This document shows positions 1,228-6,781 of a stretch of 7,708 nucleotides of DNA, one piece after another. The DNA comes from Actinomycetes bacterium (GTDB lineage Bacteria; Actinomycetota; Aquicultoria; CAJVYJ01; JAUVQD01), in assembly GCA_030666075.1 (NCBI GenBank), contig DAOUYN010000033.1, positions 1-7,708 on the forward strand. The letters run 5' to 3'. Below the pieces are notes generated by a model. That model ran no database searches and was not told where the DNA came from. It was given only the letters and a program-made list of their open reading frames with translations. Position 1 is the first letter of the stretch. Each line of letters starts with the position of its first letter. The translations under genes and the position numbers were made by a program.

Positions 1228-2211
1228 ATGAAAGCGGCCCAACCACAAACACCAAAACCCGCCCCGCCGGAGCCCAATGCTTTACGCGAAGCGGTCGAAG
1301 CCTTCAATAAGATAAGTGAAGCCTGCTCGGGGATATTGGGCTTTGAAGAAGTCCTGGGCAATGTCCTCGATGCCGCCGTCGAATTACTGGGGCTCGACGG
1401 CGGATCTATCTGCCTGGTCACCCCCGAAAACACGCTTAGCCTGGTCGCCCACAAAGGTCTCAGCCAGGCAGCGGCAACCGATATCTTGGCGAGCCAGACC
1501 AAAGTCGGCGAATGCCTCTGCGGACAGCATTTCCAGTTCCACGCGTCCTTTCCGTTATCGTCGAGATCGGTCTGCCGCGGCGTGCTCTGCGTCTTCTCGC
1601 AAGGAAGCGAGAGACCTCTGGGTCGACAGCTACAGGTCCTGGAAATGATCACCACGATGGCGGCCATGGTCATCGAAAATGCCCGGCTTTATGAAGACAA
1701 GACCAAAAAAGAGCTGGAGATCCGTCATATATATATCGATATCTTAGCCGCGGTGACCGGCGGCAAGCTGGTGATCATGACCCCCGCAGAACTGGATACG
1801 GCGCTCGGAGAGCTGAGGGGCGCCCCGACCGCCATCGCTGAGCTGGCGGACCTGGGCCGGGGCCGGGCTTATCTACGTGAAAAGATGATGCCGCTCCTAA
1901 ACCCCGGCTCGCGAGCGAACGATGCTCTGATAGCAGCGTCGGAGGCGATGACCAACGCCGTCAAGCACGGGGGCGGCGGAGAGATCTCGCTCTTTCAGCG
2001 CGACGATATCGTCCAGGCGGCCATCATCGACACCGGCACGGGGATCGACTTCCAGCTATTGCCCAAGGCGACCTTGATGTCCGGCTTCTCGACCAAACGG
2101 TCCCTGGGAATGGGCTTCGATCTCATGCTCGAATTATGCGACCGCCTCTTGCTCGTTTCCGACCGGGAAGGCACCACCATAGTTTTGGAATTCGCCCGGC
2201 AAGTTGAATAA
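1228..2211 (+). CDS. GAF domain protein with C-terminal anti-sigma-type HATPase
   Basis: This is a soluble signalling protein of 327 residues with no membrane segment. Residues about 19-155 form a GAF sensory domain, recognisable from VGECLCG (93-99), the FPLSS/GVLCVFS strands and the closing helix IENARLYE. A linker module with ILAAVTGG follows, then a GHKL ATPase domain. Its N-box is EAMTNAVKHG (Glu239, Asn243), its G1 box IIDTGTGID (268-ish), and its ATP lid STKRSLGMGF (288-297), followed by the GTT motif near the end. This ATPase is of the RsbT/RsbW/SpoIIAB type. No phospho-acceptor histidine (DHp) region is present, so it is more likely a serine/threonine kinase or a switch protein than a histidine kinase. 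The usual partners (STAS antagonist, sigma factor, PP2C) are not nearby. The GAF domain appears about 25 residues shorter than its relatives and has six cysteines. A GTG at 1183 would add 15 residues. Confidence 0.85.
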   Translation: MKAAQPQTPKPAPPEPNALREAVEAFNKISEACSGILGFEEVLGNVLDAAVELLGLDGGSICLVTPENTLSLVAHKGLSQAAATDILASQTKVGECLCGQHFQFHASFPLSSRSVCRGVLCVFSQGSERPLGRQLQVLEMITTMAAMVIENARLYEDKTKKELEIRHIYIDILAAVTGGKLVIMTPAELDTALGELRGAPTAIAELADLGRGRAYLREKMMPLLNPGSRANDALIAASEAMTNAVKHGGGGEISLFQRDDIVQAAIIDTGTGIDFQLLPKATLMSGFSTKRSLGMGFDLMLELCDRLLLVSDREGTTIVLEFARQVE

Positions 2212-2236: not shown

Positions 2237-3094
2237 ATGGACAGCAAGCGCCAAATAGCTAAGGTACTCCGAAGCAAGCCAACCATCGAAGGAGCCGGGG
2301 TCCGGCTTAAACGCGCTTTCGGCTACCCTGAAGTCCCGCTTCTCGACCCTTTTTTGCTCCTGGATGACTTTCACTCCGAGGACCCGAACGATTATATAGC
2401 CGGATTCCCCTGGCATCCGCACCGGGGCATCGAGACGGTTACCTATATGCTCCAAGGTGAGGTCGAGCATGGGGACAGCCTCGATAATCAAGGCGCTATC
2501 GGAGCCGGCGATACCCAGTGGATGACAGCGGGCAGCGGAATAGTCCATCAAGAGATGCCCCGGCGCCAAGAGGGCGCCCTCCAGGGGTTCCAGCTCTGGG
2601 TCAACCTGCCGGCATCCCACAAGATGATGCCTCCTCGCTACCAGGAAGTGAAAAGAGCGGCGGTGCCCACCGTCGAAGCGGCTCCGGGAGTGAGCGTAAA
2701 AGTCATCTGCGGCGAGATCGAGGGCGCCCGCGGTCCGGTCCGGGACATCATCGCCGAGCCGAAGTACTTTGATGTCACCATGGCGCCGCAGAGCAGTTTC
2801 TCGCCGGCGGTCAACCCGGGCCACAAGGTCTTCGCCTACATCATCGCCGGGGACGGGTTCTTCGCCGACGAGGAGCCGGAACTACTCAAAGAAGAGCATC
2901 TGATCATCTTTGGGGACGGCGATAGTCTTGACATCTTGGCCGGGGAAACGGGTCTGCGGTTCCTGCTCATCTCCGGAAAGCCCATCGGAGAGCCGGTCGC
3001 CTGGCGCGGACCGATAGTCATGAACACGCAGGCTGAACTGATGACCGCCTTCCAGGAATATGAGAACGGTACTTTTATCAAAAACAACGACTAA
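2237..3094 (+). CDS. Pirin family protein (cupin metal-binding)
   Basis: This is a 285-residue cytoplasmic bicupin of the pirin family. The N-terminal cupin has the family's metal site: WHPHRGIETVTY gives His60 and His62, and GIVHQEMP gives His104 and Glu106, the H-x-H...H-x-E pattern that binds iron or another metal in human pirin and E. coli YhhW. The EGAGVRLKRAFG segment near the N-terminus and the WVNLP segment are also family hallmarks. Some bacterial pirins open flavonols such as quercetin with oxygen, and others regulate metabolic enzymes by binding them; the physiological substrate here is unknown. The start is fixed by an in-frame stop at 2228-2230, just upstream. The gene begins 25 bp after the GAF-HATPase gene on the same strand, so they may be cotranscribed. 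Its stop codon overlaps the stop of the convergent nnrE gene. Confidence 0.93.
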   Translation: MDSKRQIAKVLRSKPTIEGAGVRLKRAFGYPEVPLLDPFLLLDDFHSEDPNDYIAGFPWHPHRGIETVTYMLQGEVEHGDSLDNQGAIGAGDTQWMTAGSGIVHQEMPRRQEGALQGFQLWVNLPASHKMMPPRYQEVKRAAVPTVEAAPGVSVKVICGEIEGARGPVRDIIAEPKYFDVTMAPQSSFSPAVNPGHKVFAYIIAGDGFFADEEPELLKEEHLIIFGDGDSLDILAGETGLRFLLISGKPIGEPVAWRGPIVMNTQAELMTAFQEYENGTFIKNND

Positions 3095-3840
3095 GCGCTT
3101 TGCCGCTGCACCTCCGCTATCGTGTCGGCAGCAAAGATCGGTCCGACCGACAACCCGAGACGGGAGTAGAGTTCGGGAGGCACCCCGATGTCGGCAAGGA
3201 AGAGCCGTCCGATAGCAGCCTGCGCCGACGGCGACGCCAGTCCCGATTTCGGCAGGGCCAGTGTCAAAGTAGCATCGGCATTCACGTGCGGTTCAAAGAC
3301 GCGCCCGGTGCCGGCATCCAATCCCGACGGCACATCCAGCGAGAGCTTAACGCCCGCGGCCTCATTAGCGGCCGCTATCAGGGCGGCCGTGTGCCCGATT
3401 GGCGGACCCGAGAGTCCGTAGCCGATCAGCGCGTCGACAACCAGATCCCAATCGCCATCGGCCAGCTGTGCCGCCGCTTCCTGCGCAAAGACGGGTTCAA
3501 CCCCGCTCGCCCGGACGATATCGAGCTGCGCGGCCGGGGCCGGTCCCAGACTATCCTGTGAGACCAATACAGTCACATCGGCCCCCCAGTTGTGGAGATG
3601 TCTGGCCGCGGCCAATCCGCCGCCCCCATTGTTCCCGCGCCCGGCCGCTACGGCTACCTTGCTCCCCACAACCGATCCGTTCAGCAGCCGTCCCCCGAGG
3701 ATCGCCAGGTTCCTCCCGGCGTTCTCCATCATCTGCAAAAGCGTCACACCGTAGACTTCGATCATCAGTCGATCGACTTCCCGCATGACTTCCGCCGTCA
3801 CCGGCGGGACCTTAGCCCCTGCAACGATAAAATCCATCAT
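3091..3840 (-). CDS. nnrE: NAD(P)H-hydrate epimerase (YjeF N-terminal domain only)
   Basis: The enzyme epimerises the damaged cofactors R- and S-NAD(P)HX so that a separate dehydratase can repair them. Its 249 residues correspond to a single YjeF_N Rossmann-like domain; the C-terminal ADP/ATP-dependent dehydratase (NnrD) found fused in many bacteria is absent here and not encoded nearby. Recognisable family elements are MMENAGRN (37-44), the nucleotide loop GRGNNGGGGLAAARHL (67-82), VVDALIGYGLSGP (134-146, with Asp136 at the expected potassium-binding position) and LDVPSGLD (168-175, Asp169 and Ser172). One point is odd: the loop is normally NNGGDG, and here the aspartate is glycine (Gly74). 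The start has two consecutive ATG codons (3840 and 3837) and no strong ribosome binding site. It is transcribed divergently from the copper lipoprotein gene and converges on pirin with overlapping stops. Confidence 0.9.
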   Translation of the reverse strand: MMDFIVAGAKVPPVTAEVMREVDRLMIEVYGVTLLQMMENAGRNLAILGGRLLNGSVVGSKVAVAAGRGNNGGGGLAAARHLHNWGADVTVLVSQDSLGPAPAAQLDIVRASGVEPVFAQEAAAQLADGDWDLVVDALIGYGLSGPPIGHTAALIAAANEAAGVKLSLDVPSGLDAGTGRVFEPHVNADATLTLALPKSGLASPSAQAAIGRLFLADIGVPPELYSRLGLSVGPIFAADTIAEVQRQSA

Positions 3841-3846
3841 ATCCCG

Positions 3847-3852
3847 ATAGTA
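3847..3852 (-). promoter_or_regulatory. Possible -10 element giving a leaderless nnrE transcript
   Basis: On the minus strand TACTAT (four of six matches to TATAAT) lies six bases before the nnrE ATG, which would place the transcription start on the A of the start codon. No recognisable -35 box is present, and the gene lacks a clear Shine-Dalgarno sequence. This is a weak, position-based suggestion. Confidence 0.15.
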
Positions 3853-3925
3853 TCCCCGCTAACCGCTTGAATCCACCCGCGGCGCTAAAAAGTCATGTAA
3901 TATGGAGATCGCGGTTGAACCTACT

Positions 3926-3931
3926 AAGGAG
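3926..3931 (+). promoter_or_regulatory. Ribosome binding site of the copper lipoprotein gene
   Basis: AAGGAG lies ten bases before the ATG at 3942. It supports that start, which also gives a well-formed lipoprotein signal peptide. The longer frame opening with TTG at 3867 would place 25 unlikely residues in front of the signal peptide. Confidence 0.6.
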
Positions 3932-3941
3932 CCACTCGAGG

Positions 3942-5387
3942 ATGTTCAAGCCAATCCGGAACTCACTGGTCGCCCTCTGCACAATAGCCGCTGCAACTCT
4001 CTTGAGCGCCTGCGGGGCCCAGCCGGTCGCTTACGATGATGCGGGCCTTGACGCCGAAGAGTTTACCAAGGCGCTGCCAGTCCCCCCTTTATTGAAAGAT
4101 ACGGACCCCCGCCCCAAACAAGCCGCTTTCGAACTGACCGCCCAGAGTGGTCCTTCACAGTTTTTTAAAGGCAAATCCACCCGCACGTTCGGTTACAACG
4201 GCCCGTATCTAGGTCCGACCATCAAGGTCACCAAGGGCGAGACGGTCAAAATCAAAGTCAATAACGAGCTGACTGAGCCGACGACTATCATGTGGCAAGG
4301 CCTTATCGCCCGCTCGGGAGCGTTGGGCGCCGCGCGCGAACTGATCGCTCCCGGTTCCTCTTGGACGACCTCCTTCGCTATCCGACAGGAGGCAGCCACG
4401 TTATGGTACCGGCCGGACCCGCTGGGCCGGGCAGGCGAGCAGCTCTATGCCGGCTTGGCCGGCGCCTTCTTAGTAGAAGACCCCGATGCGGACAAGCTCG
4501 GTCTTCCGCAGAACTACGGCCGAAACGACTTTCCCATCATCATTCAGGACCGGAAATTCAATCGCGACGGTAAGCCGGAGTACAAGTCGAGCGTCGTCTT
4601 CAGCCGAAACGGTATCTTTGGCGACCGCGCCCTGATCAACGGGGTCATCGCCCCCGTACTAGAGGTTCAGAACATAAAAACCCGGCTGCGCCTGATAAAC
4701 GCCTCGAACACCAGAGTCTACAATGTCGCCCTTAGCGACGGCACACGGTTCACTCAGATCGGCGGCGGAGGCGGGCTGTTGCCCTCCGCGGTAGAAATGA
4801 AGTCTCTGGAGCTGGCCCCGGGCGAGAGGGCCGATATTATCATCGATTTCTCGAACCGGGATGTGGGCACCGAGCTATTCCTTGAAGACCCCGAGTTCAG
4901 CCTAGTTAAAATAGCCGTGACGGCCAAGGGCAAGGACGGCCCCGCAATCCCCAAACGCTTGGCCACCATCCCAAGGCTCGATCCCCGCCGGGCGGCAAAA
5001 ACCGTGAAGTTTGAGCTGTCGAGCGCCGTGGCCGCGGCCGGCGAACCCAGCCTGATGATCAACGGCCAGAGCTTCGATCTAGAGCGGATCGATGCGCGGG
5101 CAGAAGCGGGAACCACCGAGATCTGGGAAATATCGAATCCGGTCCGTCGAGGCGAAAACTTCTCATCTCACCCGTTTCATATCCAGGGCGCCCGGTTTCA
5201 GGTCTTAAAGCGCAATGGGCGCGGAGCGGCGGCGAACGAACAAGGGTGGAAAGACACGATCTTCCTGCATGGCGATGATACCGTCCGATTGATCGTCGAC
5301 TTCACGGAGCGCGGCCTCTTCGCCTACCACTGCAACATGCTCGAACATGAGGACGCCGGGATGATGGGGCAGTTCCGGGTCGATTGA
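3942..5387 (+). CDS. Multicopper oxidase-family lipoprotein with type 1 copper site but lost trinuclear cluster
   Basis: This is a 481-residue exported protein with a CueO/CotA/FtsP-like three-cupredoxin fold. The N-terminus is a lipoprotein signal peptide (basic residues, hydrophobic core, lipobox LSAC with Cys24), so it should be anchored outside the cytoplasmic membrane. Family landmarks include GPTIKV, GLAGAFLVEDP, IIQDRKF, FGDRALINGV, LAPGERADIIIDF and GWKDT. The type 1 copper ligands are all present: His410, Cys464, His469 and Met474. The trinuclear ligands are largely gone. The first HWHG motif reads MWQG (117-120) and the second, HPH, reads RPD (157-159). In the C-terminal motifs HPFHIQG has Gln415 for His, and HCNMLEH has Asn465 for His. 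Only His413 and His463 of eight remain. Oxygen reduction to water is therefore unlikely; blue-copper electron transfer, copper binding or a structural role like FtsP is more likely. FtsP itself also lacks the type 1 site, so this is not a simple FtsP. Confidence 0.88.
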   Translation: MFKPIRNSLVALCTIAAATLLSACGAQPVAYDDAGLDAEEFTKALPVPPLLKDTDPRPKQAAFELTAQSGPSQFFKGKSTRTFGYNGPYLGPTIKVTKGETVKIKVNNELTEPTTIMWQGLIARSGALGAARELIAPGSSWTTSFAIRQEAATLWYRPDPLGRAGEQLYAGLAGAFLVEDPDADKLGLPQNYGRNDFPIIIQDRKFNRDGKPEYKSSVVFSRNGIFGDRALINGVIAPVLEVQNIKTRLRLINASNTRVYNVALSDGTRFTQIGGGGGLLPSAVEMKSLELAPGERADIIIDFSNRDVGTELFLEDPEFSLVKIAVTAKGKDGPAIPKRLATIPRLDPRRAAKTVKFELSSAVAAAGEPSLMINGQSFDLERIDARAEAGTTEIWEISNPVRRGENFSSHPFHIQGARFQVLKRNGRGAAANEQGWKDTIFLHGDDTVRLIVDFTERGLFAYHCNMLEHEDAGMMGQFRVD

Positions 5388-5496
5388 GGCCAGATTCGAT
5401 TCGCGTCTTGCAAGCAATCGCACAAGGGTTCGCATCGGCACCGCTAGATGATCCGAGTGTCCCATGGAGGAGCGACATGATCCGGCCGATAAGTGA

Positions 5497-5537
5497 TAAG
5501 ATAGCCTGACGTTTTGACCGGCACAAAGGGGTGTCGG
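5497..5537 (+). promoter_or_regulatory. Putative leader of the cyclase gene: extended -10-like element and hairpin
   Basis: The 170-bp gap between the copper lipoprotein and the cyclase is the longest in the window. It contains TGATAAGAT (5494-5502), which resembles an extended -10 element, but no good -35 box accompanies it. Downstream, CCGGCAC (5518-5524) pairs with GTGTCGG (5531-5537), seven pairs with one G-U, around the loop AAAGGG. The hairpin ends one base before the AGGAGG ribosome binding site (5539-5544), which lies 13 bases from the ATG. No T-run follows, so it is not a terminator. The rest of the gap shows no recognised riboswitch or RNA. Confidence 0.25.
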
Positions 5538-5557
5538 CAGGAGGGAGCTGAGCGAGA

Positions 5558-6781
5558 ATGAGAACCACGACGCTCACGCGCCAGTATCAACTCGCTATCG
5601 GCTTGGTTGCTGTTCTATCGATTATCTCTTTCCTGACCCTGCAGCAACTGATCAAAACCCAACTGACCGCCGCCGACGTCGTCAATGTCAGCGGCCGGCA
5701 ACGCATGCTCTCGGAAAAAATCGCGTTGACGGGCCTGGCCCTGATCCACGCAGCCGATGATGCTGAGCGAGACAGTCTCCGCTCAGAGCTTAAAGTTGCC
5801 AGTAAGCTGATGAATGACTCAGCCAATGCTCTTTTTTACGGCGGCACGGTCACTAGCCCCCCCGAAAGCCACGTCTTGCCCGAACTAAGGTCGGAGGACA
5901 TCCGGTCTATCTACCTGGAAAAGCCGACTTTGCTAAGAGAGCAGACAAAGAACTATCTCAGCCACGCCGATTCATTGGTGGCGGCCGATTCTTCGGAGTT
6001 GCGTCCCGGCAACACCCACGCAACGGCCCTGCAAAAGACAGCGCCCGCCCTGCTGACCTCCTTCAATAGGGTAGTTGCGGCCCATGCCGCTAAAAGCCGC
6101 CGAGATATCGAACAACTGCGATACATCGCTCTCGGCATCCTGCTGGTCACGCTGACCGCTCTACTGCTCATCTGCTACTTGGTCTTTCGCCCGACCGTCG
6201 ATCTCGTTGAGGAAGAAGCAAAGGAACTGGAGAAGGCGAATAGACAACTGTACCGGCTCTCGTCGATCGACGGCCTGACCGGAGTCGCCAATCGTCGCAA
6301 TTTCGATGAGTTCTTGGAAAACGAATGGCGCCGCGGGCTGCGGGATTCGGCCCCGGTCACGGTCATCATGGCGGACATCGATTTTTTCAAGGCGTTCAAT
6401 GACAGCCTCGGGCACCAAGCGGGAGACGAATGCCTCAAAGCCATAGCGGCCGTCATCGCCGAAGCCCTGAAACGCCCTGGTGATCTAGTGGCCAGATATG
6501 GCGGGGAAGAATTCGTTGCCGTCCTCCCCGGCACCGAGTTGACCGGCGGCCGGGAGGTGGCCGAGACGCTTCGGGCCCGAGTCGAAGAGATCGGGATAGC
6601 TCACCCGGCCTCGGAGATAGGCCCTACTACCACCATCAGCCTGGGAGTCGCCTGTGTCGTCCCCGACAAGTCGACCTCCCCGCGCGACTTGGTTCACCAG
6701 GCGGACCAGTCCCTATACCTGGCCAAGGCGGGCGGACGTAACCGCGTCGTCGCCTTTGAAGAAAAAGGCATCAAAACCTGA
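5558..6781 (+). CDS. Membrane diguanylate cyclase with PilJ-type sensor domain (GGDEF)
   Basis: The protein makes the second messenger cyclic di-GMP from two GTP. Its 407 residues comprise a short cytoplasmic start, a first membrane helix (about 12-28), an extracytoplasmic sensor region, a second membrane helix (about 189-210), a short coiled-coil-like linker rich in Glu and Lys (about 215-232) and a GGDEF domain. The sensor begins with VNVSGRQRMLSEKIA (42-56), matching the conserved helix of PilJ_N/NarX-like domains. The cyclase part shows DGLTGVANRR (238-247), ADIDFFKAFND (272-282) and the active-site GGEEF (315-319). RPGD (306-309), five residues before it, is the RxxD inhibitory site, so product feedback is expected. 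The ATG start has AGGAGG upstream. The stop codon is one base from the next ATG, so it is probably cotranscribed with the dehydrogenase. The signal sensed is unknown. Confidence 0.94.
   Translation: MRTTTLTRQYQLAIGLVAVLSIISFLTLQQLIKTQLTAADVVNVSGRQRMLSEKIALTGLALIHAADDAERDSLRSELKVASKLMNDSANALFYGGTVTSPPESHVLPELRSEDIRSIYLEKPTLLREQTKNYLSHADSLVAADSSELRPGNTHATALQKTAPALLTSFNRVVAAHAAKSRRDIEQLRYIALGILLVTLTALLLICYLVFRPTVDLVEEEAKELEKANRQLYRLSSIDGLTGVANRRNFDEFLENEWRRGLRDSAPVTVIMADIDFFKAFNDSLGHQAGDECLKAIAAVIAEALKRPGDLVARYGGEEFVAVLPGTELTGGREVAETLRARVEEIGIAHPASEIGPTTTISLGVACVVPDKSTSPRDLVHQADQSLYLAKAGGRNRVVAFEEKGIKT

Follow-up and report, generated by a model that had tools for sequence, protein, structure and literature searches.

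A predicted lipoprotein with a multicopper oxidase fold that keeps the type 1 copper ligands and has lost most of those of the trinuclear cluster

The stretch considered here, 7,708 nucleotides that make up positions 1 to 7,708 of contig DAOUYN010000033.1 from an Actinomycetes bacterium (assembly GCA_030666075.1) and that we call the window, carries on its plus strand an open frame at 3942-5387 of 481 amino acids and a stop codon. Its product, P0001, was taken by an earlier note, made from the letters alone, for a multicopper oxidase scaffold reduced to its type 1 (T1) copper site. Together with three full-length relatives, P0002 to P0004, it forms the clade that is the subject of this report. 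Since AAGGAG stands at 3926-3931, the ATG at 3942 is preferred as the start to an upstream TTG at 3867. The features of the gene, in which the ligands lost are those of the trinuclear copper cluster (TNC), are as follows.

3926..3931, plus strand: AAGGAG, the likely ribosome-binding site, ten bases 5' of the ATG at 3942 (sequence)
3942..5387, plus strand: gene of a predicted lipoprotein with a multicopper oxidase fold, 481 amino acids, T1 ligands kept and TNC ligands lost (frame, homologue alignment, Pfam)
4002..4013, plus strand: lipobox LSAC with predicted lipid anchor Cys24 (sequence; every full-length clade member has either LSAC or LAAC)
4290..4298, plus strand: M117-W-Q119 replacing HWH, TNC ligands lost (alignment)
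4323..4325, plus strand: L128 replacing the Asp equivalent to CueO Asp112 (Asp in 99.6% of the outgroup rows that have a residue at this column; the clade has L/L/L/S)
4410..4418, plus strand: R157-P-D159 replacing HPH, TNC ligands lost, the Arg and the Asp identical in 4/4 clade members (alignment)
5169..5171, plus strand: H410, T1 ligand kept (alignment)
5178..5186, plus strand: H413 (TNC, kept in P0001, Asn in P0003 and P0004), I414 and Q415 (TNC ligand lost) (alignment)
5328..5336, plus strand: H463 (TNC, kept in P0001, Tyr/Ser in P0003/P0004), C464 (T1 ligand kept) and N465 (TNC ligand lost) (alignment)
5346..5348, plus strand: H469, T1 ligand kept (alignment)
5361..5363, plus strand: M474, axial T1 ligand kept (alignment)

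The architecture of P0001 is that of the three-cupredoxin-domain oxidases, all three multicopper-oxidase Pfam domains being found in it, and a predicted structure model supports the multicopper-oxidase fold. Neither of two NCBIfam equivalogs claims the protein, which scores 297.6 bits against a cut-off of 581 bits for FtsP and 352.8 bits against a cut-off of 525 bits for CueO. Its signal, MFKPIRNSLVALCTIAAATLLSAC, read by eye, holds no RR pair of the twin-arginine kind expected of FtsP/SufI and ends in a lipobox, LSAC24, which the alignment, also read by eye, repeats as LSAC, LSAC and LAAC in P0002, P0003 and P0004, respectively. From its sequence, then, P0001 has what defines a bacterial lipoprotein, a signal peptide with lipobox and Cys, and its processing as such is predicted.

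The assignment of copper ligands was modelled on the ligand numbering of CueO and was checked by aligning the Escherichia coli CueO and FtsP sequences, of which the first reads HCHM at the T1 site with eight histidines at the TNC, and the second QSMS at the T1 site and T A H N H E N Q at the TNC. In P0001 all four T1 ligands, H410, C464, H469 and M474, are present, as the earlier note had read them and as the alignment with CueO and the homologues confirms, and positions 117, 119, 157, 159, 413, 415, 463 and 465, which would form the TNC, are M Q R D H Q H N. Six of the eight histidines are thus lost, and the further claim that the replacements touch all four motifs is upheld by the readings MWQ for HWH (in TIMWQG), RPD for HPH (in LWYRPDP), HIQ with Gln for the last His (in HPFHIQG) and HCN with Asn for the second His of HCH (in YHCNMLEHEDAGMM). 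Position 128 corresponds to CueO Asp112, an Asp tied to proton transfer at the TNC, and here too the residue is lost.

A protein search in which 7996 candidates were scored, with homologues taken from the best 120 of 852 matches, gave three close relatives among the matches listed, P0002 (96% identical), P0003 (83%) and P0004 (79%), the next standing at about 50%. When the four clade members were used for a profile search, no further close member appeared among its best 120 of 546 matches, and a search of genome contigs with the clade alignment found only relatives at or below 46% identity among its best 80 of 512. P0002 is identical to P0001 at the TNC positions, with two of the eight histidines left, and in P0003 and P0004 these last two are also gone, so that none of the eight TNC ligands of a four-copper enzyme remains. 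The T1 ligands that such an enzyme would have are intact in all four full-length members, in which the axial Met and the entire LEHEDAGMM loop are unchanged and Arg157, Asp159, Gln119 and Gln415 are identical. The expectation that the pattern would be conserved in homologues has therefore held, for all three full-length close homologues (79-96%) combine TNC loss with an intact T1 site; close relatives that keep every histidine, which the earlier note had named as the observation that would speak against it, were not among them, as all three share the loss.

The rarity of this combination becomes apparent in a 236-row alignment composed of 128 proteins and 108 frames from loci, in which some genes are present twice. 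All twelve ligands are present in 226 rows, and four rows, with the TNC lost and T1 intact, are the clade; the remainder comprises one partial clade copy from a sister genome (MQRD, with the T1 region lying beyond it), three fragments, and two departures in a single ligand, P0040 in one TNC and L010 in one T1 position. A further set from the phylum yielded 29 rows from 28 loci, taken out of the 53 matches listed (L137 being the gene of L003 again), and none of the 29 has the T1-only pattern: 26 are complete, two fragments come from a single locus, and in the last row Gln replaces the axial Met. The clade currently consists of four proteins and one partial copy, and, judged from these sequences, the retention of T1 with loss of the TNC exceeds chance. 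Three single-residue departures among otherwise complete relatives may be recorded in their own right: P0040 has Asp for one TNC histidine (HWD) and DAGGPH instead of DGGPH, either a sequence error or a second change at a TNC; L010 has Pro at the first T1 His position, which may be a matter of alignment; and L147 has Gln for the axial Met.

In a 51-row tree P0001-P0004 are monophyletic (100/100), with a stem that measures 0.86 changes per column; their sisters, P0005 and P0006, keep all ligands (100/98). CueO and FtsP lie far from the clade on long branches, with the caveats that these two long branches meet, that the composition of P0001-P0004 departs from that of the alignment and that deep placements are consequently unsure; the pairing of P0003 with P0004 (96/55) is likewise not firm. 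The simplest reading of the sequences would be that the stem lost six TNC ligands, that the line or lines of P0003 and P0004 afterwards lost the remaining two, and that T1 was retained throughout.

Whether such losses reflect selection or the decay of a gene, in which the TNC went first and the remainder will follow, can be judged from what else has changed. Taking as near-invariant any column that is filled in at least 90% of 231 outgroup rows and in which at least 97% share one letter, we count 36, and the clade has changed ten of them, namely the eight TNC ligands, Asp128 (CueO Asp112) and Asp276, and has kept 26, including all T1 ligands. Fisher tests, framed post hoc, gave 1.5e-6 for TNC against the rest and 0.002 for TNC against T1. 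Variation within the clade affects 118 of the 439 core columns, four of the eight TNC positions and none of the four T1 positions. Comparison of the window gene with the copy in G001, a genome of the same genus, over codons 1-339 yields a nonsynonymous rate (dN) of 0.015 and a synonymous rate (dS) of 0.112, a ratio of 0.14 by NG86 and 0.11 by YN00, with 11 nonsynonymous and 25 synonymous codon differences (p = 3e-8 against neutrality); for the same pair of genomes pirin (216 codons) has a ratio of 0.16 and YjeF_N one of 0.25. These codons are under purifying selection. Decay finds some support in the four former TNC positions that still vary within the clade and in the G001 copy (L002, contig 167), where an in-frame TAG occupies codon 340, a Leu codon in the window, 65 nucleotides before the contig end. 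The frame beyond this TAG continues at high identity, the T1 region of the copy lying off the contig, and the TAG may be a contig-end error or a real gene break. Against decay stand the open frames of all four full-length copies, the ratio of 0.14 over codons 1-339, near that of pirin and below that of the adjoining YjeF_N, the fact that, TNC ligands aside, 26 of 28 near-invariant columns are retained, and the intact lipobox and T1 ligands in 4/4. We regard decay as very improbable; that of a single copy was rejected as the leading explanation on the homologues and on dN/dS, the stop in G001 keeping its chances low rather than nil, and the earlier argument for selected loss gains support from the shared pattern and from the ratio of 0.14 over codons 1-339.

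The nearest known systems are the three-domain bacterial multicopper oxidases, CueO and the Pediococcus Mco (6z0j/6xiz), with which the clade shares the fold, the three cupredoxin domains, the T1 ligands and the LEHEDxGMM loop, P0001 being 33-38% identical to the aligned enzymes; they differ in that the clade lacks the Asp112 relay and between six and eight of the TNC ligands, and in that its signal has no twin arginine and is predicted to be that of a lipoprotein. E. coli FtsP/SufI shows the opposite loss, and here the contrast drawn in the earlier note stands, FtsP having QSMS at T1 where the clade has HCHM. According to a passage in PMC2661564, SufI has lost all but two copper ligands and its crystal contained no copper. 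Orthology to FtsP, which has lost the T1 site that the clade keeps in all four ligands, was rejected on the ligands, the NCBIfam cut-off and the tree, its deep placement being unsure.

This bears on the possibility that the clade proteins are structural scaffolds in the manner of FtsP/SufI, binding partners by their surface, with T1 ligands that persist for structural reasons or around an inert copper. FtsP itself demonstrates that these ligands can be lost when copper is not required, whereas the clade has kept 4/4 along a stem as long as 0.86 changes per column and stands apart from FtsP in the tree, and we hold such a role to be improbable.

Other copper-poor relatives also differ from the clade in what they have lost. 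Passages in PMC4203857 describe insect MCORP as having lost the T1 and type 3 (T3) ligands with two type 2 (T2) histidines kept, the authors saying the same of SKU5, and passages in PMC10315306 describe SKU5 as lacking type I and type III ligands and LPR1 as having lost type I yet being a ferroxidase. Like insect MCORP and the plant SKU5/SKS proteins the clade is a copper-poor branch of the family, and like plant LPR1 a multicopper oxidase relative with partial copper sites, but it keeps T1, which on those accounts they lost, and loses T2/T3. The T2 pair, positions 117 and 413 if numbered after Fet3p H81/H416 as a passage in PMC4203857 has them, is represented by H413 only in P0001 and by neither residue in P0003 and P0004. 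Small cupredoxins and the mononuclear domains of the six-domain blue proteins likewise have a T1 site and no TNC themselves. According to passages in PMC3600357 ceruloplasmin has mononuclear sites in domains 2, 4 and 6, and among the six-domain proteins the sites lost vary, none of any kind being left in factor V and one trinuclear and two mononuclear sites in factor VIII; the clade differs in having the whole three-domain oxidase scaffold with a lone T1 ligand set. Among the open-licence papers in the capped listings no natural three-domain T1-only protein was found. The four three-domain copper-poor relatives of which we found a description, FtsP, MCORP, SKU5 and LPR1, have all lost T1, and the clade is their reverse.

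The hosts offer a context for this loss. G000, the genome holding the window gene, comprises 1.15 Mb in 215 contigs, is 75% complete and has one copy of the gene. Family searches covered 20 genomes, including G000 and G001, both about 75% complete: a haem-copper oxidase was found in one of the 20, neither G000 nor G001, and cytochrome bd in none, the same search being positive in 10 of 14 control genomes. Acetyl-CoA synthase occurs in 14 of the 20, including G001. On the negative oxidase searches in G000 and G001 and the surrounding family survey, the lineage is likely anaerobic, both genomes being incomplete, and loss of an oxygen-reducing site is consistent with this, because neither oxidase is seen in either genome. 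Copper ATPases have matches in 20/20 genomes, above cut-off in 15 that include G000 and G001; Cupredoxin_1 occurs in nine, including G001, and the PF13442 cytochrome c in 13, including G000. Contig 60 of G000 (L151) carries a small monohaem cytochrome c with a lipobox (1379-1756, minus strand) and a dihaem cytochrome c frame truncated where the contig ends (5396-6118, minus strand), either of which might be a redox partner, and contig 233 of G001 (L152) a small cupredoxin lipoprotein frame (2250-2765, plus strand) with YTYHCHLHPNM near its end, likely a second copper lipoprotein in the genus.

Our preferred interpretation, which we put forward tentatively and a little short of probable, is that the clade proteins are T1-only, one-copper, lipid-anchored single-electron carriers outside the membrane and not oxygen reducers. 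The T1 copper in domain 3 would take up an electron at its exposed face and pass it on by an outer-sphere route, for instance to a c-type cytochrome and perhaps to one that is a lipoprotein; the inward path to the TNC would be closed, because P0001 has lost one of the histidines flanking Cys464, and P0003 and P0004 have lost both. With no terminal oxidases in the lineage, the TNC would have had no oxygen to reduce, such that selection would have held T1 and not the TNC, and Arg157, Asp159, Gln119 and Gln415 probably occupy the emptied pocket. That copper other than T2 can persist once T2 is gone is suggested by Fet3p, in which, according to a passage in PMC5796215, abolition of T2 left 2.7 copper per protein with T3 still present. 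The broader proposal, that mono-copper "half oxidases" are a natural class in which anaerobes shed the TNC to leave dedicated T1 electron-transfer lipoproteins, mirroring FtsP, MCORP, SKU5 and LPR1, is one we consider possible with slightly less assurance. If true, evolution in this clade split electron uptake from oxygen reduction by keeping T1 alone, and the proteins would parallel in nature the copper-depleted enzymes made by engineering, among them the Fet3p variants, and would allow a test of how an oxygen-using fold fares once its lineage lives without oxygen. The label 'multicopper oxidase' on the gene of an anaerobe need not imply an oxidase.

The same sequence facts fit the main rival, a copper-binding lipoprotein in which Cys-His2-Met would hold Cu(I) tightly in order to buffer, store, deliver or sense copper outside the membrane, electron transfer not being its role. 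As a matter of general chemistry, Cu(I) would dominate in an anaerobe and the kept ligand set would be suitable; the copper-transporting ATPase matches above cut-off in G000 and G001 also favour it, as does the lack of any electron-chain hint near the gene in the window, where, on the other side, no copper-related gene lies nearby either. An intact three-domain scaffold is not obviously needed by a copper buffer, and the axial Met and whole LEHEDAGMM loop are unchanged in 4/4. We judge this rival unlikely, if less so than any other alternative. It could also be supposed that the protein is still an enzyme, in which a remade pocket (Arg157, Asp159, Gln119 and Gln415, with His413/His463 in P0001) does other chemistry fed by the T1 copper, and the identity of the first four residues in all members would accord with this. 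The last two pocket histidines are replaced in P0003 and P0004, however, Arg, Asp and Gln make a poor copper set on general chemical grounds, and the Asp112 relay is gone; we give this little credence.

Several points weigh against an electron carrier. The clade is small, its T1 retention resting on four protein sequences, and the gene occurs in only two of the 36 genomes of the class, G000 and G001, of the same genus. The span used for dN/dS stops short of the T1 ligands, and the G001 copy has its stop. The residues that bind substrate copper in CueO are unmatched in the alignment, MML before HPF in CueO being FSS in P0001, and for this reason no donor can be named. Neither a copper gene nor an electron-chain gene lies beside the P0001 gene in the window, and no candidate partner is found in both genomes, Cupredoxin_1 being absent from the matches in G000 and the PF13442 cytochrome from those in G001. 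Acetyl-CoA synthase has no match in G000, the oxidase absences could be gaps in genomes that are about 75% complete, and the case for a likely anaerobic host covers G000 and G001.

The genes that flank the P0001 gene encode an FtsX-like permease, a LolD-like ATPase, a GAF/ATPase protein, a pirin, an NAD(P)HX epimerase, a GGDEF protein and a zinc dehydrogenase, and they give no operon or neighbour clue to function. A scan of 3700-5700 found no promoter, and one for terminators over the same interval found two terminator-like sites against 2.0 in shuffles, the 3' flank folding no better than shuffles (z -0.29). Directly downstream, at 5558-6781 on the plus strand, lies the gene of the GGDEF diguanylate cyclase, which carries a PilJ-like sensor domain at its N-terminus. 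The pirin gene (3091-3840, minus strand) and the epimerase gene (2237-3094, plus strand), whose product is a YjeF_N domain only, without the dehydratase domain, are arranged tail to tail with a four-base overlap, and this order and overlap are identical in G001 (L002).
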